In this document: piece after piece, positions 13,882 to 49,566 of the stretch
Numbering within the stretch: the first letter of the stretch is position 1
Layout of the letters: the number at the start of each line of letters is the position of its first letter
NCBI RefSeq assembly: GCF_023016155.1
Contig: NZ_JALKBG010000005.1
Location: forward strand, 1-64,000
Length of the DNA stretch: 64,000 nucleotides
Source: Aliiroseovarius sp. F20344
Lineage (GTDB): Bacteria > Pseudomonadota > Alphaproteobacteria > Rhodobacterales > Rhodobacteraceae
Direction: 5' to 3'
Notes under the pieces: model-generated
The model's database searches: none
What the model was told of the DNA's origin: nothing
Seen by the model: only the letters and a program-made list of their open reading frames with translations
Translations under genes and position numbers: made by a program

Positions 13882-14199
13882 ATGAAACCCTTTGCACCAA
13901 TGATTGCCCCGCTTGCCTTTGTCGGTCTATTGACCGGATGCGAGGCATTCAACCCGACAACTACGCCCACCACCAACGTTACCGATCTTCCGTTGATGGG
14001 CGGATATCGCAGCCCGGCAGACGAATGCGAAAAGTTGGGTGAGAATGAACTTACCATCAACTATCTGGACCACACCGCCGATCTGGTCGGGTGCCCCGAA
14101 GACTACGAAGGCTTGGGGGTTTTCCAGACTGACACCGGCGGCGTCGAGGTCGCACGGATTGATGGTTGGGTTCTTTTCAGCGTACCCAGCGGGATTTGA
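13882..14199 (+). CDS. Small putative lipoprotein, 105 aa
   Basis: The N-terminus has a type II signal peptide: MKPFAPMIAPLAFVGLLTGC, with the lipobox LTGC placing the lipidated Cys at residue 20. The mature part is short, Thr/Pro-rich at first (FNPTTTPTT), then acidic, with two further cysteines (DECEKL and VGCPEDYEG). It has no domain I recognise. AAGGAGAG lies 6-10 bp before the ATG at 13882. It stands alone between carB and a desaturase on the other strand. Confidence 0.7.
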   Translation: MKPFAPMIAPLAFVGLLTGCEAFNPTTTPTTNVTDLPLMGGYRSPADECEKLGENELTINYLDHTADLVGCPEDYEGLGVFQTDTGGVEVARIDGWVLFSVPSGI

Positions 14200-14223
14200 C
14201 CTGCAAGATAGCGTCGGGCGCGA

Positions 14224-15258
14224 TCAGCCGTAAAGCTGCCGCGCCTGCGCAAATGACATCAGCGTCCTGCTTTTTTCATCCCACAGGTGCAAACGCACAC
14301 TGGCCAAGCTTTCGCGAATGGTCATGCGGTTGATCGTTGCCAGATACTCATGATCCTTAAGGACCTCTGTCAGCCGATAGAACGGGATGCGGCTGTGCAG
14401 GTGATGCACGTGGTGAATGCCGATGTTGGCGCTGAACCATTGCAGCACTGACGGCATCACGTAGTGCGAACTGCCATGCAGGGCAGAATCGTGGAGCTGC
14501 CAATCTTCTTCAACATTCCAGTGGGTCTCTTCGAACTGGTGCTGGACATAGAACAGCCACATGCCTGCGGTCGCCGCCAAAAGGGTGGTTGGCAAGAAGA
14601 TCAGAAGCACAGGCATCAGGCCTCCGAAATACCAGATCAATATAAGCGCGGCGACGATGGCAAAGTTCGTCCCCATGGCGCTAATCCAGTAGCGGGCGGC
14701 GTTCATCAACCCAATGGGCAGGCGATTTTGCAGCAAGAACAGGTAACCGGGGGCGAATCCGAACAGAGTTATCGGGTTGCGATACAAGCGGTATTGGAAC
14801 TGACGCATTGGTGACAGGGCTTTGTATTCCTCAACGGTCAGGGTCATGATGTCCCCGATGCCGCGTTTGCCCAGATTGCCGGCCGAGTTGTGGTGGATGG
14901 AGTGGGTGCGTCGCCAGACGTCATAGGGCGTCAAGGTGACCACGCCGATCACCCGACCAACCCAATCGCTTACACTCCGGCTTTTGAAAACCGAACCGTG
15001 CCCACAATCATGCTGAATCGCAAACAGGCGCAGTAGAAAGGCAGAGTTGAATATCGCAATCGCAAGGCTCAGCCACGGGCTGATGGACAAGCAATACCAC
15101 GCAAGCGCCCAGAGAAGGATGAACGGCCCGGCACTGACGACAAGTTCAAACGAACTGCGAAACGCACTTGGTTCGCGGTACTTCGCAAGGGTTCTGACCC
15201 AATCGCGTGCTGAGGTTGCATCTTGTTCGGGCTGCGGGATCTTTGAAAGCTCTGTCAT
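14224..15258 (-). CDS. Membrane fatty acid desaturase (acyl-lipid type)
   Basis: This is a 344-aa di-iron integral-membrane desaturase. The three histidine boxes are intact: HDCGH at residues 83-87, HSIHH at 119-123 and HHVHH at 282-286. Hydrophobic helices lie at about 40-80 and 195-240. This spacing fits delta-12/omega-6-type and related acyl-lipid desaturases of COG3239, which introduce a double bond into a membrane acyl chain using O2 and ferredoxin. Regioselectivity cannot be read from sequence. It ends 25 bp from the convergent lipoprotein gene and has no operon partner. Confidence 0.9.
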   Translation of the reverse strand: MTELSKIPQPEQDATSARDWVRTLAKYREPSAFRSSFELVVSAGPFILLWALAWYCLSISPWLSLAIAIFNSAFLLRLFAIQHDCGHGSVFKSRSVSDWVGRVIGVVTLTPYDVWRRTHSIHHNSAGNLGKRGIGDIMTLTVEEYKALSPMRQFQYRLYRNPITLFGFAPGYLFLLQNRLPIGLMNAARYWISAMGTNFAIVAALILIWYFGGLMPVLLIFLPTTLLAATAGMWLFYVQHQFEETHWNVEEDWQLHDSALHGSSHYVMPSVLQWFSANIGIHHVHHLHSRIPFYRLTEVLKDHEYLATINRMTIRESLASVRLHLWDEKSRTLMSFAQARQLYG

Positions 15259-25956: not shown

Positions 25957-26087
25957 CCTGCCCTTATCCGATGCCCCGCGCGTCGGGTCCAGCCCGGAAC
26001 TCTGCCGCAATCGGCGCTAACATGTCAGTGGCCTCTGGACAGGCGCAGGTGCAGGCGTCAGAAACGGTGCGAACAGGCGGAGGCGAC

Positions 26088-27074
26088 ATGGACATTCAGG
26101 ATCTGGCCAAACGAGTGATCGCGGGCGAACGCCGTGCTTTGGCGCGTGCCATTACGCTGGTGGAAAGTGGACGTGCGGATCACCGCGAACAAGCGGTAGA
26201 GCTTCTGGAAGCGACTGCACCGGAAAACCGCCAAGCCCTGCGCATCGGTCTGTCGGGCACACCCGGAGTGGGTAAGTCCACGTTTATCGAAGCGTTTGGC
26301 ATGTTCCTGATCGAAAAGGGTCTGAAGGTAGCTGTGTTGGCGGTGGATCCCAGCTCGGCCCGGTCGGGTGGCTCTATTCTGGGTGACAAAACCCGCATGG
26401 AAAGCCTGAGCCGCGAGAAGAACGCCTTCATCCGTCCATCCCCTTCGCAGGCGCAAATGGGCGGAGTTGCCCGTCGAACCCGCGAGGCTGTGGCCCTGTG
26501 CGAGGCTGCTGGTTTTGACATCGTGCTGATCGAAACTGTGGGCGTTGGGCAGTCCGAAACCATGGTGGCTGAGATGTCGGATCTGTTCCTTTTGCTTCTC
26601 GCCCCGGCAGGCGGCGATGAATTGCAAGGCGTGAAGCGCGGTATCATGGAGATCGCCGACCTAATCCTGGTGAACAAGGCCGATGGCCCGCTGAAAGAAA
26701 CCGCGATGCGCACCTGTGCCGACTATGCGGGTGCGCTGCGCCTGTTGCGCAAACGTGTCTATGATCCCGAAGGCTTCCCGAAAGCTCTGATGGTCTCTGC
26801 CGTCACGCAGGACGGTCTGCCCGAGGCATGGGAGACGATGGAAGAGCTTGTCGCATGGCGTCGCGAACATGGCCACTGGGAAAAGCGTCGCGCCGCGCAG
26901 GCCCGTCACTGGTTCGAGGAAGACCTGCGTATCGGCCTTTTGTCTGCGCTGGAAACAGGTGACGCACGCGCACGAATTGACGCGCTGGGCGGGCAGGTTG
27001 CGGCGGGCGAATTGTCAGCTTCGCGCGCTGCGGATCAGATGCTTGCTTACCTGAAAATGGCATCTGACAGCTGA
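26088..27074 (+). CDS. meaB: Methylmalonyl-CoA mutase-associated GTPase MeaB
   Basis: This is a 328-aa G3E-type P-loop GTPase that loads and protects the B12 cofactor of methylmalonyl-CoA mutase. The P-loop GTPGVGKST is at residues 57-65. The Mg-binding DPSSARSGGSILGDKTRM-type region follows (seen as DPSSARSGGSILGDK), then ETVGVGQSE, and the base-recognition NKAD. I chose the ATG at 26088 (MDIQDLAKRV), preceded by GGCGGAGG; the open frame back to 25971 lies in the divergent promoter region. It supports the same pathway as mce at 1399. Confidence 0.95.
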   Translation: MDIQDLAKRVIAGERRALARAITLVESGRADHREQAVELLEATAPENRQALRIGLSGTPGVGKSTFIEAFGMFLIEKGLKVAVLAVDPSSARSGGSILGDKTRMESLSREKNAFIRPSPSQAQMGGVARRTREAVALCEAAGFDIVLIETVGVGQSETMVAEMSDLFLLLLAPAGGDELQGVKRGIMEIADLILVNKADGPLKETAMRTCADYAGALRLLRKRVYDPEGFPKALMVSAVTQDGLPEAWETMEELVAWRREHGHWEKRRAAQARHWFEEDLRIGLLSALETGDARARIDALGGQVAAGELSASRAADQMLAYLKMASDS

Positions 27075-40776: not shown

Positions 40777-42321
40777 CTAGTGGAACTTTTTGATTTCGCC
40801 TGACTTGAGGCGCGACAGGTAACTGTCCAGTTCGCCTTTCACCACGGGCATCAGGAAGTACAGCGCTACGATGTTCACAACAGCCATGGCAAAGATCGCT
40901 GCGTCCGAGAAGTCGATTACTGGGCCAAGGTTGGCCGAGGCACCGATCACCACGAAGATGCAGAAGATGATCTTGAACACCAGTTCTTTGGTCTGTCCTT
41001 CGCCGAACAGGAAGGTCCAGGCCTTAAGGCCGTAGTAGGACCAGCTGATCATGGTCGAGAAGGCAAACAAGATTACCGCAATCGCCAGGATGTACTTGAA
41101 GAACGGAATGGCTGACGAGAATGCTGCAGATGTCAGCGCGACGCCTTTGTTGCCATCAACCGTTTGAATGGTCGATGCACCTTCGTCCAGCAGATACAGG
41201 CCTGTGTTCGGATCGCTGACCAACTGGCCAGTGATGATGATCACCAAAGCGGTCATCGTACAGATCACAACGGTGTCAATGAACGGCTCAAGCAAGGACA
41301 CGAAGCCCTCGGTGATGGGCTCTTTCGTACGAACTGCCGAGTGGGCGATCGCGGCCGAACCCACGCCTGCTTCGTTCGAGAATGCGGCCCGTTTGAAGCC
41401 CTGGATCAGGGCGCCGACCATGCCGCCAGCAACACCGGCTCCGGTAAAGGCACCAGAGAAGATTTCGCCAAACGCCCAACCGATCATGTTTGCGTTCATG
41501 ATCAGGATAACCAGTGCAGTCAGCACATAAAGCACGCCCATGAAAGGCACGACTTTCTCGGTTACTTTGGCGATGGATTTCAGACCACCAACGATCACTA
41601 AGAATACGATGATGGCAAAGATCAGACCAGTGATCCAACCCGGGAAGTCACCAACAACGTTTGCGATCTGAGCATGCGCTTGGTTGGCCTGGAACATGTT
41701 GCCGCCACCAAAGGCACCTAAGATACAGAAGACCGAGAATAGGACCGCCATGAAGCCGCCTGCTGGCAGACCACGTTCGGCAAAGCCTTTGGTCATGTAG
41801 TACATAGGGCCCCCGGATACGGTGCCGTCTTCGTACTCATTGCGGTACTTCACGCCCAGCGTACATTCGGTGAATTTCGACGCCATGCCCATGAGGCCAG
41901 CGAGGATCATCCAGAATGTTGCACCGGGTCCACCGATGCCTACCGCGACTGCAACGCCGGCAATGTTGCCAAGACCCACGGTGCCGGAAAGGGCGGTTGC
42001 AAGTGCTTGGAAGTGGCTAACCTCGCCCGCGTCATTGGGGTCGGAATAGTCACCTTTGACCAGCGAGATAGAGTGAGGGAAAGCCCGGAACTGGATAAAG
42101 CCGAAGTAAAGCGTAAATACAGTTGCGGCGATCACCAGCCACATCACGATCCACGGGAAGGAAGTTCCGGGGAACGGGCTGAAGATAAGTGTAACAAACC
42201 ATCCGGTCGCGCTTGCGAAGCCTTCATTGATGGTCTGGTCCAATGATTGTGCCATGGCTGGCGCAGATGCTGCCAACATGGCGGGTGCAGCGAGAGCTGC
42301 CGCCTTAATTTGATTGGTCAT
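40777..42321 (-). CDS. Sodium:amino acid symporter, AGCS family
   Basis: This 514-aa protein has about ten to eleven helices with AGCS signature segments: GTVGLGNIAGVAVAVGIGGPGATFWM (cited in part as GTVGLGNIAGVA), FTECTLGVKYR, SGGPMYYMTKG and AAFSNEAGVGSAAIAHSA. An N-terminal hydrophobic leader ending in APAMAQS resembles a signal sequence, as in other proteobacterial AGCS proteins. Family members carry alanine or glycine with sodium; the substrate here could differ given the adjacent methionine operon. It lies 16 bp after the usp gene, in one operon. The start is ATG 42321 (MTNQIKAAAL). Confidence 0.92.
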   Translation of the reverse strand: MTNQIKAAALAAPAMLAASAPAMAQSLDQTINEGFASATGWFVTLIFSPFPGTSFPWIVMWLVIAATVFTLYFGFIQFRAFPHSISLVKGDYSDPNDAGEVSHFQALATALSGTVGLGNIAGVAVAVGIGGPGATFWMILAGLMGMASKFTECTLGVKYRNEYEDGTVSGGPMYYMTKGFAERGLPAGGFMAVLFSVFCILGAFGGGNMFQANQAHAQIANVVGDFPGWITGLIFAIIVFLVIVGGLKSIAKVTEKVVPFMGVLYVLTALVILIMNANMIGWAFGEIFSGAFTGAGVAGGMVGALIQGFKRAAFSNEAGVGSAAIAHSAVRTKEPITEGFVSLLEPFIDTVVICTMTALVIIITGQLVSDPNTGLYLLDEGASTIQTVDGNKGVALTSAAFSSAIPFFKYILAIAVILFAFSTMISWSYYGLKAWTFLFGEGQTKELVFKIIFCIFVVIGASANLGPVIDFSDAAIFAMAVVNIVALYFLMPVVKGELDSYLSRLKSGEIKKFH

Positions 42322-42337
42322 GATGTTTCCTGTTCGC

Positions 42338-42772
42338 TTATGGCACAATGGTCACTGGCACCGGCGCTGCCTGCGCCAGGCTGATGGCCGCTGACCCGAA
42401 AACGCGGGATGAAAGGCCAGGTTCGCCATTGCGACCGATCACAATCTGATTGGCTCCGCATTCCCCGGCAATTTCTCCAAGGGTTGTTGCGATGTTTCCG
42501 TATTTCAGCGCCGTGTCGATCTGCAGCCCGCTGTCTTTCAGGCTTTCAACGGCTGGGGCAAGAATAGCAGCCTCAGCACGGGCCAATTCTTCACCGCGTC
42601 GCTTATGACGTTCTTCCAATTCAGTTGGTGTCAAAAACGAATATGGCGACCATTCCAGTACGTGAGCAACAACGATGCTGCCCCCCAGAGTTTTGGCCAG
42701 ATCCGTAGCGAATGCGAGCGCCGCATTGGCGCTGTCACTGCCGTCATAACCGACGACGATCTTATGGGACAT
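42338..42772 (-). CDS. Universal stress protein (UspA family)
   Basis: The 144-aa protein starts MSHKIVVGYDGSDSANAALA, with the UspA beta-1 strand, and has the ATP-binding pattern G-x2-G-x9-G-S as IGRNGEPGLSSRVFGSAA near residues 112-129. It is a single Usp domain. The gene is first in an operon with the AGCS symporter; Usp proteins next to transporters often bind ATP or adenylates and modulate transport, but this is inference. Confidence 0.92.
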   Translation of the reverse strand: MSHKIVVGYDGSDSANAALAFATDLAKTLGGSIVVAHVLEWSPYSFLTPTELEERHKRRGEELARAEAAILAPAVESLKDSGLQIDTALKYGNIATTLGEIAGECGANQIVIGRNGEPGLSSRVFGSAAISLAQAAPVPVTIVP

Positions 42773-42916: not shown

Positions 42917-43375
42917 ATGGACCAACTCGATATCCACATTCTTTCCATCCTTCAGAAGGACGGTCAGATATCGATGGCACGACTATCCGACAAGGTCGGC
43001 CTGTCGTTGTCTGCGTGCCATAGGCGCGTCAAACTGCTTGAGGCTGAGGGGAAAATTTCCCACTACGCTGCCCGTTTGAATCGCAAGTCCGTGGGGCTTG
43101 AAATACAAATTTTCATCGAGGTCAAACTGGTAAGTGCACGGCGGACCGATATTTCGGCATTTGAAGAGGCCATTTGCCAGATGCCTGAGGTTCTGGAATG
43201 CCATCTGATTTCGGGTGAATTTGACTATCTCATCCGGGTGGCCGCCCGAAATACCGAGGATTACGAAGCGCTTTATCGTGAGCGGTTGTCGCTAATCCCA
43301 TCGGTCGCGCAGATGAAGACCTTGCTGTGCCTTTCGACGGTGAAGGAATTCCGGGGGTTCCACCTGACAGCGTGA
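42917..43375 (+). CDS. Lrp/AsnC family regulator divergent from usp-agcS
   Basis: The 152-aa product has an N-terminal HTH (MDQLDIHILSILQKDGQ, then LSDKVGLSLSACHRRVKLLE) and a RAM domain with LEIQIFIEVKLV and VLECHLISGEFDYLIRV. The gene is preceded by repeated GAAAWTTTC elements and is divergent from the usp-symporter operon, so it is the likely local regulator. It is a different paralogue from the Lrp at 43413, which faces it tail to tail 37 bp away. Confidence 0.92.
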   Translation: MDQLDIHILSILQKDGQISMARLSDKVGLSLSACHRRVKLLEAEGKISHYAARLNRKSVGLEIQIFIEVKLVSARRTDISAFEEAICQMPEVLECHLISGEFDYLIRVAARNTEDYEALYRERLSLIPSVAQMKTLLCLSTVKEFRGFHLTA

Positions 43376-43412: not shown

Positions 43413-43871
43413 CTAAGACGCTGGCGGGAAGACCGCTGTCTTCTTGACCGTCCCGTAGACAAAGCTGGTGTCGATTGAAGCGATGCCTCCGATTGGGTGG
43501 ATCCGGGTGCGGATGAAATCCTCGTATGCGTTCAGGTCAGGCACCAGAACCCGAAGCTGATAGTCCATCGCGCCCGTCATCACGTGACATTCCAGAACTT
43601 CGTCAATCAGGCGGACGCGTTTTTCGAAATTCTGCACATCTGCTTCGTTATGTCGTTCAAGCCGAACACGCACGAAGACTGTGATGGACAGGCCGTAGGC
43701 AGCTGGATCCACTTCAGCGCTGTATCCTTGGATCACGCCATCGGCTTCCAGATTGCGCACTCTGCGCAGGCATGGCGAGGGCGACAGGTTCACTTCCTGT
43801 GCAAGATCTTGATTGGTCATACGGCCATCTTTTTGCAATGCGCGTATGATCTGCCTGTCTTTCGCGTCCAT
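43413..43871 (-). CDS. mdeR: Lrp family regulator of methionine catabolism (MdeR-like)
   Basis: The 152-aa protein has the Lrp HTH (DRQIIRALQKDGRM, then LAQEVNLSPSPCLRRVRNLE) and a RAM domain (ITVFVRVRLERH, VLECHVMTGAMDYQLRV). It is divergent from methionine gamma-lyase with 114 bp between the starts, where a long perfect palindrome lies. In Pseudomonas putida, MdeR is an Lrp-type activator of mdeAB that responds to methionine, and the arrangement here is the same. The symbol is given by analogy of context. Confidence 0.88.
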   Translation of the reverse strand: MDAKDRQIIRALQKDGRMTNQDLAQEVNLSPSPCLRRVRNLEADGVIQGYSAEVDPAAYGLSITVFVRVRLERHNEADVQNFEKRVRLIDEVLECHVMTGAMDYQLRVLVPDLNAYEDFIRTRIHPIGGIASIDTSFVYGTVKKTAVFPPAS

Positions 43872-43882
43872 CTCGGGTCCTC

Positions 43883-43903
43883 TATTGGCATATTATGCCA
43901 ATA
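43883..43903. promoter_or_regulatory. 21-bp perfect palindrome in the mdeR-mdeA intergenic region
   Basis: The arms TATTGGCATA / TATGCCAATA meet at a single central T. Additional TGGCATA and TTGGCAA half-sites follow at about 43916 and 43925. The palindrome lies 11 bp from the regulator start and 82 bp upstream of mdeA. It is the best candidate MdeR operator. Confidence 0.7.
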
Positions 43904-43985
43904 TTTTACTAAATGGTGGCATAGTTGGCAATTCATTGCTGCTCAAAGGGGTTCATTATGTCTCAAAATGAATCAGGAGCTTCCC

Positions 43986-45185
43986 ATGACCCAATCGCCA
44001 GGTTTCGCAACCCGTGCCATCCATCACGGCTATGACCCAAGATCCGAGCAGGGGGCACTGAATCCACCGATCTACATGACGTCGACCTTCACCTTTGAAA
44101 ATGCCGAGGCAGGTGGCGAGATGTTTGCCGGCGAACGCGAAGGACATTTCTATTCGCGGATCTCAAACCCGACGCTGGATCATCTGGAACAGCGCATTGC
44201 AAATCTTGAAGGTGGTGAAGCGGGGCTGTGTACTGCTTCGGGCATGGGCGCGATCACCTCGACCCTTTGGTCGTTTCTAAGCGCGGGCGATGAGGTGATC
44301 ATCGACAAAACGCTTTATGGCTGCACCTTTGCCTTTATGACCCATGGCTTGCCGCGCTTTGGGGTGAAGGTGAACTTGGTTGATTTGACGGACCCAGCCA
44401 ACTTGAGCGCGGCCATCAGCGACAAAACCAAGATCGTCTATTTCGAAACGCCTGCCAACCCGAACAACCGATTGATCGACATTGAAGCGATTTCCGCAAT
44501 CGCGCACCGCGCTGGGGCCAAGGTCATCGTTGATAATACTTATGCAACGCCAGTGCTGACCCGGCCGATTGAACATGGCGCGGATATCGTTGTGCATTCT
44601 GCGACCAAGTTTCTGGGCGGGCATGGTGATGTCATTGCCGGTCTTGTGGTCGGAAGCGAGGAAGACATCACTCAGATCCGTCTGGTCGGCCTGAAGGATA
44701 TGACCGGCGCGGTTATGTCGCCGATAACTGCCATGCTTCTGCTACGTGGGATCAAAACGCTTGAGCTGCGGGTCGCGCGACACAGTGAAAGCGCCATGAA
44801 AGTGGCACAAGCACTTGAGGCTCATCCCGCGGTGCTGAAGGTTTCCTATCCTGGGCTGGACAGCTTTGAGCAGCGCGAGCTTGCAGGACGGCAGATGTCT
44901 GCTTTCGGGGGTATGATCCCGTTTGAAGTGAAAGGCGGGAAGGCCGGAGGGATCGCGGTGATGAACCGTCTGAAACTGATCCAGCGCGCTGTCAGCCTTG
45001 GCGATGCGGAAAGCCTTATCCAACACCCTGCGTCCATGACGCATTCCACCTACACGCCTGAAGAACGCGCCGAACATGGCATCGCAGAAGGTCTGGTCCG
45101 CTTGTCTGTTGGATTGGAAGCCTCTGATGACATCATTGACGATCTTTATGCCGCGCTTGGTGCGCACAACGCACAGGCAGCCTGA
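43986..45185 (+). CDS. mdeA: L-methionine gamma-lyase
   Basis: The 399-aa PLP enzyme splits methionine into 2-oxobutyrate, methanethiol and ammonia. The PLP lysine is K208 in [14 protein letters not shown]. The substrate-site cysteine that marks methionine gamma-lyases is present (C113 in LYGCTFAF; C116 in the Pseudomonas enzyme), whereas cystathionine lyases have Gly there. SRISNPT and YFETPANPN are also typical. I chose the ATG at 43986 ([10 protein letters not shown]), with CAGGAG upstream; the frame open further 5' crosses the divergent regulator. It is first of four genes in the same direction. Confidence 0.93.
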
Positions 45186-45260
45186 TACAAGAAACAGGCG
45201 GACAGGCAGTGCGGGTTTTAGTCACGCCGTCATTCTTTTAGGGAGAAATCGGAGTTCACC

Positions 45261-46583
45261 ATGTCGAATAAGAATATTCTGGGCGATCCGTCCAGCATAG
45301 CACCCGACTATTTAAATGATGGCTGGCTGAACGAGCTGGGCCGCACCCGTGGTGCTGGTCCGTTTCTGGCCAATCACCCAGCACCGGGCAGAGGAATGTC
45401 CACGACTTGCGTTCATGCAGGTACCCATGACGATCCACGCACTGGTGCCGTTGGAACCCCGATTTATCAGGCGTCGACCTTTGTGCTGAATGACAATCAG
45501 TATCAGTCCGTCGAAGATGGGTTTGCACGTGACCGCTTCATTTACTCGCGTTATGGCAACCCGTCGCAATGGGCGGTGCAGGAAAAGCTGGCGGCGCTGG
45601 AAGGCGCTGAATCCGCGATCGTATTCAGCTCGGGCATGGCGGCCATTACCAGCACTGTGATGGCGTTGGTGGACAAGGGCGCGCATGTCGTGGCCTCAAG
45701 CGACCTGTATGGCGGCACGTTCAACCTGTTTAATCAGGAATTCCCGACATTCGGAATGTCCTGCACCATGGTCGATTCTTATGATTTTGATGCGATCGAA
45801 GCCGCCATTCAGCCCAATACTCAGCTGATGTATTTCGAAGCGATCACCAACCCGCTTCTGAAGGTGATCGACATTCCGCGGCTGGTTGAGATCGCGAAAC
45901 GTCGCAACGTGCGGCTGGTGGTAGACGCCACTTTTGCCCCGCCTGTCGCAATGCGCACGCTGGAGCATGGCGTTGATGTCGTGGTGCACTCAGCGTCGAA
46001 ATACCTGAACGGGCACAGTGACCTGATTGCCGGTGTTGCCGCTGGTCCGCGAAAGCTGATCGACATGATCTGGCCACGGTTGCTGAACTACGGTGGCTCG
46101 CTGGATCCGCATGCCTGTTTCCTGTTGGAGCGCGGGTTGAAAACGCTTGATGTACGCATGCGCGCCCACGAGGAAAGCGCAACCGCTTTGGCAAAGTTCC
46201 TAGAGACACATCCACGGGTGAAAAAGGTCTTCTACCCGTTCTTGGAAAGCCATCCTGACTATGACACGGCCAAACGGCTTTTGAAGAACGGGATGGGCAA
46301 TATCACCTTCGTCATTGAAGGCGGGGACAAGGCTGCACTGCGATTGGTGGATGCGTTGCGCATTCCGAAACAGGCCACCAGCCTAGGCGGTGTGGAAAGC
46401 TTGATCAGCCTGCCATTCAACACATCGCAAGCCACGTTCACCACCCGTCAGCGGGCCGATATCGGCATTGATCCCGGATGTGTACGCCTGTCTGTCGGCA
46501 TTGAGGATGCAGACGATCTTATCGCCGATTTTGACCGCGCATTTGCCACCATATACTCATCAAAGGAACCCGCCCATGCGTAA
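45261..46583 (+). CDS. Second trans-sulfuration family PLP enzyme (cystathionine beta-lyase-like)
   Basis: The 440-aa protein carries K247 in VVHSASKYLNGHSD, SRYGNPS and SSGMAAITST, so it is a complete Cys/Met metabolism PLP enzyme. The position equal to the methionine gamma-lyase cysteine is Gly (LYGGTFNLF), so it is not a duplicate of mdeA. It has about 48 extra N-terminal residues (MSNKNILGDPSSIAPDY and onwards) of unknown role. It may act on cystathionine, cysteine or homocysteine derivatives, or resynthesise thioethers from methanethiol. AGGGAG lies before the ATG. It overlaps osmC by 8 bp. Confidence 0.85.
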   Translation: MSNKNILGDPSSIAPDYLNDGWLNELGRTRGAGPFLANHPAPGRGMSTTCVHAGTHDDPRTGAVGTPIYQASTFVLNDNQYQSVEDGFARDRFIYSRYGNPSQWAVQEKLAALEGAESAIVFSSGMAAITSTVMALVDKGAHVVASSDLYGGTFNLFNQEFPTFGMSCTMVDSYDFDAIEAAIQPNTQLMYFEAITNPLLKVIDIPRLVEIAKRRNVRLVVDATFAPPVAMRTLEHGVDVVVHSASKYLNGHSDLIAGVAAGPRKLIDMIWPRLLNYGGSLDPHACFLLERGLKTLDVRMRAHEESATALAKFLETHPRVKKVFYPFLESHPDYDTAKRLLKNGMGNITFVIEGGDKAALRLVDALRIPKQATSLGGVESLISLPFNTSQATFTTRQRADIGIDPGCVRLSVGIEDADDLIADFDRAFATIYSSKEPAHA

Positions 46584-47127
46584 CAATATCCCTGTAGCCG
46601 CTCTTAGCGAATTCGTGAATGAAGTGGCCGACGTCCCCGAAGAGGCGTTGATGGACTATGGATTGGAAATCAAATGGGAAAGCGGCACCCGCTCGCGCAG
46701 CGAAACCAAACCGATGAAAGTTGGACCGCATCAGATCAGCCGCTCGTTCACCTGGAAATCGGATGAACCGCGCCAGTTGATGGGCAACAATCATGGGCCA
46801 AACCCGCAAGAACTTCTGCTGTCGGGGCTGGGGTCGTGCATGATGGTTAGCTTTGTGGCTGGTGCCACAGCTGCCGGTATTCAGCTGGAAACCGTGCGTA
46901 TTGATTTTGATGCCACGCTGGACCTGCGCGGATTTATGGGGTTGGGTACCAACAGCACCGTTGGATTTCCAGAAGTCAAATACCGCATCTACGTGACGGG
47001 CGACGGGACAGAAGAACAATTCGCCGAACTTCACCGCAAGTCGGTTTCACACAGCCCGAATGCCCAGACGATCATGAACCCCGTGCAGATGACGGGCGAG
47101 ATCATAAGCACCCAAATCGAAAGCTGA
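46576..47127 (+). CDS. OsmC family protein
   Basis: The 183-aa protein has the OsmC core: NPQELLLSGLGSCMMVSFVAGA with the first redox Cys, followed by the long helix. The position that carries the second Cys in Ohr/OsmC peroxidases reads SVSHSPNAQTI, so the resolving thiol is missing and a classical thiol-peroxidase cycle is doubtful. The N-terminal 25 residues form an extra helix. It starts inside the preceding gene (8-bp overlap), with AAAGGA upstream. In this operon it might bind or detoxify methanethiol or its disulfide; that is inference. Confidence 0.88.
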   Translation: MRNNIPVAALSEFVNEVADVPEEALMDYGLEIKWESGTRSRSETKPMKVGPHQISRSFTWKSDEPRQLMGNNHGPNPQELLLSGLGSCMMVSFVAGATAAGIQLETVRIDFDATLDLRGFMGLGTNSTVGFPEVKYRIYVTGDGTEEQFAELHRKSVSHSPNAQTIMNPVQMTGEIISTQIES

Positions 47128-47175
47128 CCGGCACGGTCCTGCCACGCCAAAACAGCTCTGCCAGAAAGTTCCAAT

Positions 47176-49566
47176 ATGACGACCACAGACCATCACCACC
47201 TTAAGACCATTGAACAGCGCCTGCTTTGGCTGTCGCATTGGATGATCCATCACGCCAACCACGTACGTCCCAAAGTGGACGGGATCAAAGTAGGCGGGCA
47301 CCAGGCCAGCTCGGCCTCGATGGTGTCGATTATGACTGCGCTGTATTTCTCAACCCTGAAGCCGGAAGATCGTGTGGCGGTAAAGCCGCACGCTTCGCCC
47401 GTGTTTCACGCCATTCAGTATCTGATGGGCAACCAGACTCGCGAGAAGATGGAAAACTTCCGTGGTTATGGTGGGGTGCAGAGCTATCCCAGCCGGACCA
47501 AGGATATTGACGACGTTGATTTCTCGACGGGTTCGGTAGGCCTGGGTGTGGCGGTGACCTCGTTTGCGTCGCTGATCCAAGATTACATCAAGGCAAAAAG
47601 CTGGGGTGCGGATGCGCCGATGGGTCGTATGGTGGCGCTGGTTGGTGACGCTGAATTGGACGAGGGCAACATCTACGAAGCCCTTCAGGAAGGTTGGAAA
47701 AACGACCTGCGTAACACGTGGTGGATTATCGACTATAACCGCCAATCGCTGGACGGGATCGTGCGCGAAGGCCTGTTCGAGCGTGTCGAGAAGATCTTTG
47801 ACGCCTTCGGCTGGGTCGTTGTGCGCATCAAGCATGGCGCGCTGCAACGTGCGGCGTTTGAAGAACCGGGCGGCGACAAGCTGCGCGACTGGATCGATAG
47901 TTGCCCGAACCAAGACTACTCGGCCCTGACGTTCATGGGTGGCGAAGTTTGGCGCAAGCGGCTGATGGATGATCTGGGCGATCAAGGCGACGTCACTGCG
48001 CTGATTGAAAAGCGCAGCGATGAAGAGCTGGCCGCCCTTATGGAAAACCTCGGCGGTAACTGCGTCGAGACGATGGCCCAGACCTTTGACGCCATCGACC
48101 ACGACCGTCCTACTTGTTTCCTGGCCTATACGATCAAGGGCTGGGGCACGCCGATTGCAGGCCATAAGGACAACCACGGCGGCTTGATGAACAACACGCA
48201 GTTTGGCGCGTGGCAGAAGCACATGGGCGTGGCTGAAGATGATGAATGGGAGCCTCTGGCCACCGTCGAAGATCAGGCCGCCATGCGAGATTTCTTGTCG
48301 AAAGTGCCGTTCTTTGCCCAAGGTCCGCGCCGACTTTCCGATGAAAAGATCGAAGTGCCTGCGATCGAGATGGATACCTCGCGCGAGATCTCGACCCAGA
48401 TGGCGTTTGGTAAGGTGCTCGATGACCTGTCCAAGGGTGACAGCAAGCTAGCGGAGCGGATTGTAACGACTTCCCCTGACGTGACGGGCACCACGAACCT
48501 TGGTCCGTGGGTGAACCGCCGCAAGCTGTTCGCCCGCACCGCTCAGGCAGATGCGTTTATCGAAAACCGCATCCCCTCGACCGCGAAGTGGGAATTCAAA
48601 CCGGAAGGGCAACATATCGAACTTGGCATTGCCGAGATGAACCTGATGCTTCTTCTGGGGGCTGCGGGCCTGAGCCACAGCTTGTTTGGTAAGCGATTGA
48701 TTCCGGTTGGTACCGTCTACGATCCCTTCGTGGCGCGCGGGTTGGATGCGTTGAACTATGCTTGTTATCAGGATGCGCGATTCCTGCTGGTCGGCACCCC
48801 ATCAGGCGTCACGCTGGCCCCAGAAGGTGGCGCGCACCAGTCGATTGGTTCGCCGCTGATCGGCATGTCGCAAGATGGGCTTGCATCGTTCGAGCCAGCC
48901 TTTGCAGACGAATTGGCGGTGATCATGGAGTGGGCGTTTGACTACCTTCAGCGTGATGGCGAAGGCGATCCGGACGAGCGCACATGGCTGCGTGACGAGA
49001 CCGGCGGCTCGGTCTATCTGCGTCTGACCACCAACCCAATTGAGCAGCCCGGTAAACGGGTGGACGAGGACTTCCGCCAAGGGGCCATCGATGGTGCCTA
49101 TTGGATGCGCAAACCTGGTCCCAATTGCGAGGTCGTGATTGCCTATCAAGGTTCGGTCGCCCCAGAAGCGATCAAGGCCGCTGGCAGGATCGGTGAAGGG
49201 CGTCGCGATGTCGGCGTTCTCTCTGTCACCTCGGCAGATCGTTTGAACGCAGGCTGGACAGCAGCGCAACGTGCGCGGTCGCGTGGCAATACCGACGCGC
49301 AATCTCACATCGAAGCGCTGTTGGCCACGTTGCCCCCCCATTGCAAGATCATCACGGTGATCGACGGCCACCCCGCGACGCTTTCGTGGTTGGGTTCAGT
49401 GGCTGGTCATCAGACGATCCCGCTGGGTATCGAGCATTTCGGCCAAACCGGAACGATCGGCGATCTGTATCGCCATCACGGGATTGATGCCCAAGCGATT
49501 GTCGAGAAGGTGAACGGCTTGACCGTAGGACGGCGGCTTTTGCGAGGCGCAAACGCGCCTGCTTGA
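47176..49566 (+). CDS. mdeB: AceE-like 2-oxoacid dehydrogenase E1 (2-oxobutyrate dehydrogenase-like)
   Basis: The 796-aa protein is a homodimer-type E1 (thiamine diphosphate) related to AceE and transketolases. DGIKVGGHQASS is near the N-terminus, and the ThDP motif is GDAELDEGN (157-165) with N188 in IIDYNRQSLDG. A transketolase-like C-terminal domain follows. It is about 90 residues shorter than AceE. In P. putida, mdeB next to the lyase gene encodes such an E1 acting on 2-oxobutyrate. Here it would feed propionyl-CoA towards mce/MeaB. No E2 or E3 gene is adjacent, so these must come from elsewhere. Confidence 0.85.
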   Translation: MTTTDHHHLKTIEQRLLWLSHWMIHHANHVRPKVDGIKVGGHQASSASMVSIMTALYFSTLKPEDRVAVKPHASPVFHAIQYLMGNQTREKMENFRGYGGVQSYPSRTKDIDDVDFSTGSVGLGVAVTSFASLIQDYIKAKSWGADAPMGRMVALVGDAELDEGNIYEALQEGWKNDLRNTWWIIDYNRQSLDGIVREGLFERVEKIFDAFGWVVVRIKHGALQRAAFEEPGGDKLRDWIDSCPNQDYSALTFMGGEVWRKRLMDDLGDQGDVTALIEKRSDEELAALMENLGGNCVETMAQTFDAIDHDRPTCFLAYTIKGWGTPIAGHKDNHGGLMNNTQFGAWQKHMGVAEDDEWEPLATVEDQAAMRDFLSKVPFFAQGPRRLSDEKIEVPAIEMDTSREISTQMAFGKVLDDLSKGDSKLAERIVTTSPDVTGTTNLGPWVNRRKLFARTAQADAFIENRIPSTAKWEFKPEGQHIELGIAEMNLMLLLGAAGLSHSLFGKRLIPVGTVYDPFVARGLDALNYACYQDARFLLVGTPSGVTLAPEGGAHQSIGSPLIGMSQDGLASFEPAFADELAVIMEWAFDYLQRDGEGDPDERTWLRDETGGSVYLRLTTNPIEQPGKRVDEDFRQGAIDGAYWMRKPGPNCEVVIAYQGSVAPEAIKAAGRIGEGRRDVGVLSVTSADRLNAGWTAAQRARSRGNTDAQSHIEALLATLPPHCKIITVIDGHPATLSWLGSVAGHQTIPLGIEHFGQTGTIGDLYRHHGIDAQAIVEKVNGLTVGRRLLRGANAPA

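Follow-up and report, generated by a model that had tools for sequence, protein, structure and literature searches.

A cystathionine gamma-synthase-like enzyme and an OsmC protein paired within a methionine gamma-lyase operon of Rhodobacterales

The operon and its proteins

The DNA analysed here (the window) is a stretch of 64,000 nucleotides from Aliiroseovarius sp. F20344, positions 1–64,000 of contig NZ_JALKBG010000005.1 in assembly GCF_023016155.1. Its subject is an operon in which two genes, encoding a cystathionine-gamma-synthase-like enzyme (CGS) and an OsmC protein, lie inside what is otherwise a gene set for methionine breakdown, and in which, on the comparisons below, this pair looks like a sulfur-handling unit of its own. 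An Lrp/AsnC-type regulator in MdeR-like position (LrpA, 43413–43871, − strand) is divergent from four + strand genes: an mdeA-like methionine gamma-lyase (MGL, 43986–45185, 399 residues), the CGS (45261–46583, 440 residues), the OsmC (46576–47127, 183 residues) and an AceE-like E1 in mdeB-like position (47176–49566, 796 residues). An earlier interpretation made from the letters alone (the sequence-only reading) had proposed this order and an 8-bp overlap of the inserted pair, and the coordinates bear out both: the CGS and OsmC reading frames share 46576–46583, with gaps of 75 bp between MGL and CGS and of 48 bp between OsmC and E1.

We take the mdeR-mdeA-mdeB gene set of Pseudomonas putida to be the known Lrp-MGL-E1 operon. 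Like it, the window operon has a divergent Lrp-type regulator adjoining a true MGL and an AceE-like E1 downstream; it differs in the CGS and OsmC placed between MGL and E1, a comparison drawn on gene content and order. The insert and the pair were not encountered in the literature searched: among the matches listed from the open-licence literature, available in extract, no account of the CGS-OsmC pair or of the five-gene operon was found. MdeR is described in extracts of PMC8707732 as a methionine-responsive, divergently transcribed regulator.

LrpA matches the Pfam AsnC_trans_reg and HTH_24 domains. The MGL scores above both curated NCBIfam models for its function (PRK07503, 701 against a cut-off of 666 bits; TIGR01328, 618 against 549.7 bits) and has both the gamma-lyase cysteine (LYGCT) and the KD pair. 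The E1 falls far under the aceE cut-off (177 against 859.9), yet exceeds those of three Pfam E1/transketolase models, PDH_E1_M and Transketolase_N among its matches; its nearest solved structure, 1l8a, is a pyruvate dehydrogenase E1. Homologues of the E1 at E <= 1e-100 occur in 100 of 289 genomes of the class, often beside an Lrp.

The CGS shares its fold and pyridoxal phosphate (PLP) residues with the cystathionine gamma-lyase/synthase and MGL family (PF01053, Cys_Met_Meta_PP; 440.7 against 27 bits), and its best solved relatives are cystathionine gamma-lyase, cystathionine gamma-synthase and MGL. It differs from these relatives in passing none of the 25 curated NCBIfam models shown and in possessing an N-terminal motif of its own. 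Its best score, 374 against 549.7 bits, is to one of the MGL models, and at 344 against 666 bits it falls below the other, so that it does not qualify as an MGL. As the sequence-only reading had noticed, the gamma-lyase cysteine is missing, Gly152 (LYGGT) standing in its place; the KD pair is absent too. The PLP-site residues Tyr95, Arg97, Tyr150, Asp222, Lys247 and Arg409 are kept. An N-terminal extension does exist, although its length up to the PLP fold is closer to 45 residues than to the 48 claimed for it, the Pfam match beginning at residue 47. Within it, at residues 22–34, lies the motif W-x3-[LM]-x-R-x-R-x2-G-P, present in 18 of 18 CGSs checked that are paired with an OsmC and in 0 of 23 unpaired relatives. 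Trp104, Asn155, Glu290 and Asn387, among others, are likewise fixed in paired CGSs and found in at most two of the 23 unpaired ones, the nearest unpaired relative listed being 48% identical to the window CGS. The predicted CGS structure, with a mean predicted local distance difference test score (pLDDT) of 56.8 and residues 1–104 below 50, was left unused.

The OsmC is well above the Pfam OsmC cut-off (66.8 against 27.5). The reactive cysteine and the glutamate whose roles are established in two-Cys OsmC/Ohr peroxidases are present as Cys88, the only cysteine, and Glu79; together with Arg56 they are kept in all 14 aligned cassette OsmCs. The resolving cysteine is absent, as had been claimed, the sequence HSPNAQT being found instead; the same is true of 23 of 23 members of the wider clade, so that its absence is a trait of the clade and not special to this operon. 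The nearest solved relative by both sequence and fold look-up is the OsmC-like protein GSU2788 (PDB 2opl), at 29% identity and with a poor superposition (template modelling (TM) score 0.46). The look-up, the only use made of a structure model with pLDDT 66.7, returned 34 matches at E <= 0.001 with TM scores mostly of 0.4–0.6. The idea of a selenoprotein was rejected: in-frame TGA matches (loci L019, L022 and L024) cover only the C-terminal stop, and the cysteine is present.

Between LrpA and MGL lies the palindrome TATTGGCATATTATGCCAATA (43883–43903, assigned to neither strand), which is the likely LrpA operator. Its pattern, TTGGCAT-N3-ATGCCAA, recurs with 0–3 mismatches in 19 of the 21 LrpA intergenic regions tested, whether these belong to operons with the pair, to ordinary operons or to the MGL-less locus L057 described below; at most one of 500 shuffles was as good. 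On the + strand no terminator-like site scored in 43986–49566 (terminator-like counts being at chance level), and the one weak promoter-like site, at 47046–47075 inside OsmC and before E1, belongs to a class whose counts are also at chance level.

Distribution and origin of the cassette

Genome contigs were scanned with the CGS and the best 80 of 225 relatives kept. Fourteen close CGS loci (L044–L057) are 72–90% identical to the window protein, the next relative being at 48%. A contiguous LrpA-MGL-CGS-OsmC-E1 cassette is present in nine of them (L044–L047, L049–L051, L053 and L055), and in two more (L048, L052) contig ends cut the cassette while the remaining order fits. The other three vary: at L054 an Lrp and additional sequence separate OsmC from E1, at L056 the pair is not followed by an E1 (the rest of that genome was not searched for E1), and at L057 the cassette is without an MGL. 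On these sequence comparisons the five-gene order is conserved well beyond chance. The four-gene order that the sequence-only reading suggested seeking in other Rhodobacterales is thereby recovered, and its picture of an enlarged mdeR-mdeA-mdeB-like operon holds in other members of the order, where the pair likewise stands behind a putative LrpA operator.

The pair is nevertheless not a regular component of such operons. LrpA-MGL-E1 without it is seen, for example, at L126, L127, L155, L177–L180 and L182. In the family sample the CGS was found at E <= 1e-95 in four of 295 genomes, that of the window included, against 77 of 295 for the E1; the insert is therefore sporadic. At E <= 1e-100 the CGS has matches on nine plasmid records; those at 74–88% identity are four from Sulfitobacter and one from Roseovarius, and the full cassette was present on all three Sulfitobacter/Roseovarius plasmids opened. 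On the Roseovarius W115 plasmid (L206, 14432–21305) the genes after the cassette are annotated as peroxiredoxin-like, DsbA family and glutathione S-transferase. On a Sulfitobacter plasmid (L204, 15456–18067) an AraC-type gene comes next, and after it genes for an acyl-CoA dehydrogenase and for a crotonase that carries the annotation dmdD. In genome G009 (L011, 1498–2049) and in Leisingera thetidis (L218, 6001–6555), OsmCs of a neighbouring clade also adjoin an acyl-CoA ligase and a crotonase. We make no claim of a link to dimethylsulfoniopropionate, since the Sulfitobacter "dmdD" scores above a broad crotonase model only, and the OsmC-adjacent ligases and crotonases of Leisingera and G009 pass no model shown.

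The window copy of the operon looks mosaic, LrpA and E1 resembling an ordinary operon and MGL-CGS-OsmC a cassette. Its LrpA shares 89% identity with the LrpA of the ordinary operon L224 and 61–72% with those of other cassettes, whereas its MGL is 71% identical to that of L224 and 78–88% identical to cassette MGLs; its E1 groups with L177/L224 (support 0.92). In these comparisons L177 and L224 represent one locus, L038 and L051 one contig, and L224 is the one ordinary operon in the LrpA tree, LrpA being cut in the others. At the DNA level identity switches near the MGL start (79% to cassette L044 versus 65% to L224) and switches back, weakly, within E1 (e.g. 76 versus 82%). The disagreeing parts and the switches fit replacement of a resident MGL by an MGL-CGS-OsmC block.

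Loss of the pair has left a trace as well. In genome G234 (L221, 7531–7782, − strand) an 84-codon OsmC remnant corresponding to residues 97–180 lies between MGL and E1; the CGS is gone, as is the N-terminal half of OsmC with the catalytic cysteine. This is the scar of a lost CGS-OsmC pair. The MGL-E1 gaps of L222 and L223, checked for CGS and OsmC remnants, contained none.

Co-inheritance of CGS and OsmC

The OsmC gene lies directly 3' of the CGS gene not only in the cassette loci but also in three more distant bacteria. Polaromonas sp. P1-6 (L207) has an Lrp (43% identical to LrpA), a CGS (62%) and an OsmC; no E1 match was found in its 25-kb stretch. In Shinella sp. WSC3-e (L208, 11926–14300) a CGS (53%) and a tandem OsmC lie inside a nonribosomal peptide synthetase/polyketide synthase (NRPS/PKS) cluster. 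In Kocuria sp. TGY1120_3 (L209, 4088–6464) a CGS (47%) and a tandem OsmC lie in a cluster that also encodes a PF10014 dioxygenase, a pre-ATP-grasp protein and two further enzymes, one PatB-like (below cut-off) and the other BioF/Kbl-like. Both clusters look biosynthetic from their gene content. In the fetched Shinella and Kocuria stretches the MGL query matches only the CGS itself. The tandem OsmCs have a cysteine at the catalytic position in the first domain only, and an aspartate at the position of Glu79. A search of 190 genomes of the class with the Shinella CGS at E <= 1e-110 returned only the window's genome. At 66 other CGS loci, some of them short, a two-query phmmer search (E <= 1e-3) detected no OsmC next to the CGS, and a single weak, non-adjacent OsmC match at L112.

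Trees of the two proteins support pairing and co-inheritance across distant bacteria. The paired OsmCs form one clade (17 tips, ultrafast bootstrap (UFBoot) 99) and so do the paired CGSs (18 tips, UFBoot 98), Shinella and Kocuria being joined in both (100), and Polaromonas being placed with the cassette in the CGS tree (99). The OsmC tree comprised 14 cassette sequences, nine others fetched and 23 of the 25 loci L012–L036 (L013 and L032, with no piece of 110 residues, were left out); the CGS tree comprised 18 paired sequences, 23 of the 66 other loci and the window MGL, without L048 and L052. Paired OsmCs carry Ser11, Glu12 and Glu16 in 17 of 17 cases; among 29 others, roughly half of them gapped in this region, the respective counts are 0, 2 and 1. 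The 23 rows from L012–L036 were trimmed to their matched part, leaving a gap at Ser11 in 14 of the 29 unpaired rows.

The paired OsmC clade joins the OsmCs of redox gene sets (UFBoot 92). One of these, on a Burkholderia cepacia plasmid, consists of osmC, sdr, tetR, dsbA, ahpD-like, oye-like and 4-ot genes and a PatB-family C-S lyase, much like the Pseudomonas allicin-resistance islands as described in extracts of PMC7119367. Allicin and thiosulfinate tolerance sets (PMC7119367; altJ/osmC, PMC9933511, both in extract) resemble the cassette in that thiol-redox genes there adjoin an OsmC, one belonging to the neighbouring clade. The B. cepacia stretch opened has no paired-type CGS, and its OsmC is 35% identical to the paired OsmC of Polaromonas.

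Two Lrp-linked loci with the pair lack an MGL. L057, from the metagenome-assembled genome G848, has LrpA-CGS-OsmC-E1; no MGL orthologue was found in that genome, the best other MGL-like matches being at 41–42%. L037, from the 99% complete genome G054, has LrpA-CGS-OsmC only; again no MGL orthologue was found (best match 41%), and the genome is not among the 77 with E1. Whether the pair occurs mostly away from mdeA and mdeB, a question on which the sequence-only reading had staked its proposal, has a split answer: in Rhodobacterales they are mostly together, but elsewhere mostly not.

Possible function of the pair

Since the pair persists where no MGL was found, a pair with its own substrate is most likely. 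We tentatively favour an explanation in which the CGS would act as a C-S lyase and the OsmC would accept the reactive sulfur product, the two forming a co-evolved module that an LrpA-controlled MGL-E1 operon took up. In keeping with a link to sulfur redox chemistry, the nearest OsmCs outside the paired clade include those of the redox gene sets described above. There is also precedent: MGL converts methionine sulfoxide to thiosulfinate according to extracts of PMC4717258, and those of PMC9769926 state that megL of Ruegeria pomeroyi is "greatly increased" with H2O2, its authors proposing a role in methionine sulfoxide metabolism. The CGS would be a PLP-dependent lyase distinct from MGL, its products probably a 2-oxo acid, ammonia and a reactive sulfur leaving group, perhaps a sulfenic acid. 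The single-cysteine OsmC would probably bind the leaving group as a mixed disulfide, to be freed afterwards by dihydrolipoyl or another dithiol, or by glutathione. In a full cassette, both MGL and CGS would deliver 2-oxobutyrate to the E1. The substrate and product, the OsmC chemistry, the contact between the two proteins and the inducer of the operon are points that we infer.

Several observations pull the other way. Directly after the Polaromonas pair lies a broken MGL fragment (13941–14298, + strand, residues 259–378, in two frames), a link between pair and MGL that reaches outside Rhodobacterales, and the OsmC tree, unlike that of CGS, puts Polaromonas with Shinella and Kocuria, although unsupported (49). 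The operator palindrome is not found in Polaromonas or in the MGL-less L037 (six mismatches each, the same as shuffles), and the absence of MGL from G848 is not proven since that genome is metagenome-assembled. MGL adjoins E1 in 10 of the 27 loci L177–L203, in L202 with an Lrp between them, and because E1 so often lacks an MGL alongside, 2-oxobutyrate is only a presumed E1 substrate. A paired CGS could be a gamma-synthase, and the pair may form a C-S bond in Shinella and Kocuria since the clusters look biosynthetic. Finally, for allicin islands the extracts of PMC7119367 report that osmC transposon insertions were not found and an overexpression line was not recovered.

A bolder form of the favoured explanation is doubtful. 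In it, CGS and OsmC would be dedicated partners that dock by way of their N-terminal signatures. An oxidised sulfur amino acid, for instance methionine sulfoxide, would be cleaved by the lyase, which would pass a sulfenic acid to the OsmC cysteine before toxic thiosulfinate can form, and the module would have been reused in marine sulfur catabolism and natural-product clusters. Docking of the basic W-x3-L-x-R-x-R-x2-GP of CGS with the acidic S-E-x3-E of OsmC is a guess. MGL converts methionine sulfoxide to thiosulfinate according to extracts of PMC4717258, and those of PMC9769926 state that megL of Ruegeria pomeroyi is "greatly increased" with H2O2, its authors proposing a role in methionine sulfoxide metabolism.

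It is somewhat unlikely that the CGS merely broadens the range of substrates, to homocysteine, cystathionine or S-alkyl cysteines, with the OsmC riding along as a general peroxide or thiol-stress protein. The ordinary PLP active site of the CGS, the nature of its best solved relatives and the usual role of OsmC proteins as peroxidases (PMC7119367, in extract) would suit it, but one OsmC clade tracks one CGS clade across Alphaproteobacteria, Betaproteobacteria and Actinomycetota, which exceeds what a general stress gene would need.

The sequence-only reading had suggested that the pair captures or recycles the methanethiol released by MGL, for example with the CGS as a gamma-synthase remaking methionine from an acyl-homoserine. 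The transsulfuration-family fold of the CGS, the proximity of pair and MGL in most Rhodobacterales copies and the Polaromonas fragment speak for this. Recapture would, however, undo the work of MGL, the genome already holds an SBP56 (methanethiol-oxidase-family) gene, and the pair occurs in G848 and G054 where no MGL orthologue was found and in the Shinella and Kocuria clusters with no MGL match. The suggestion is weakened to the point of being improbable, and is less likely than a C-S lyase working with OsmC. The least probable proposal is that the pair is at root biosynthetic, a unit that makes an unusual amino acid through substitution at the gamma or beta position while OsmC carries the thiol or sulfur, and that the cassette re-uses it. 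The Shinella NRPS/PKS cluster and the Kocuria cluster with its dioxygenase, PatB-like and BioF/Kbl-like enzymes might suggest this, but the catabolic setting of LrpA operator, MGL and E1 stands against it.

Rhodobacterales take part in marine methionine turnover and, according to PMC10936201, in that of methanethiol. With a lyase-OsmC pair aboard, a plasmid-borne operon could alter which sulfur product exits the cell. Such a pair would also supply one-cysteine OsmC proteins with a defined enzymatic partner, and it flags the Shinella and Kocuria clusters as places to seek the same chemistry.

Elsewhere in the window, mce (1405–1794, − strand) and meaB (25971–27074, + strand), which the sequence-only reading had linked to the operon through propionyl-CoA, are both real genes but lie far from it, about 42 and 16 kb away. 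Nearer by, a second Lrp-type gene (42917–43375, + strand) is placed between a universal-stress-like gene and LrpA, convergent on the latter, and beyond it is an AgcS-type amino acid carrier (40777–42348, − strand). Either of these two could provide an amino-acid uptake function for the operon.

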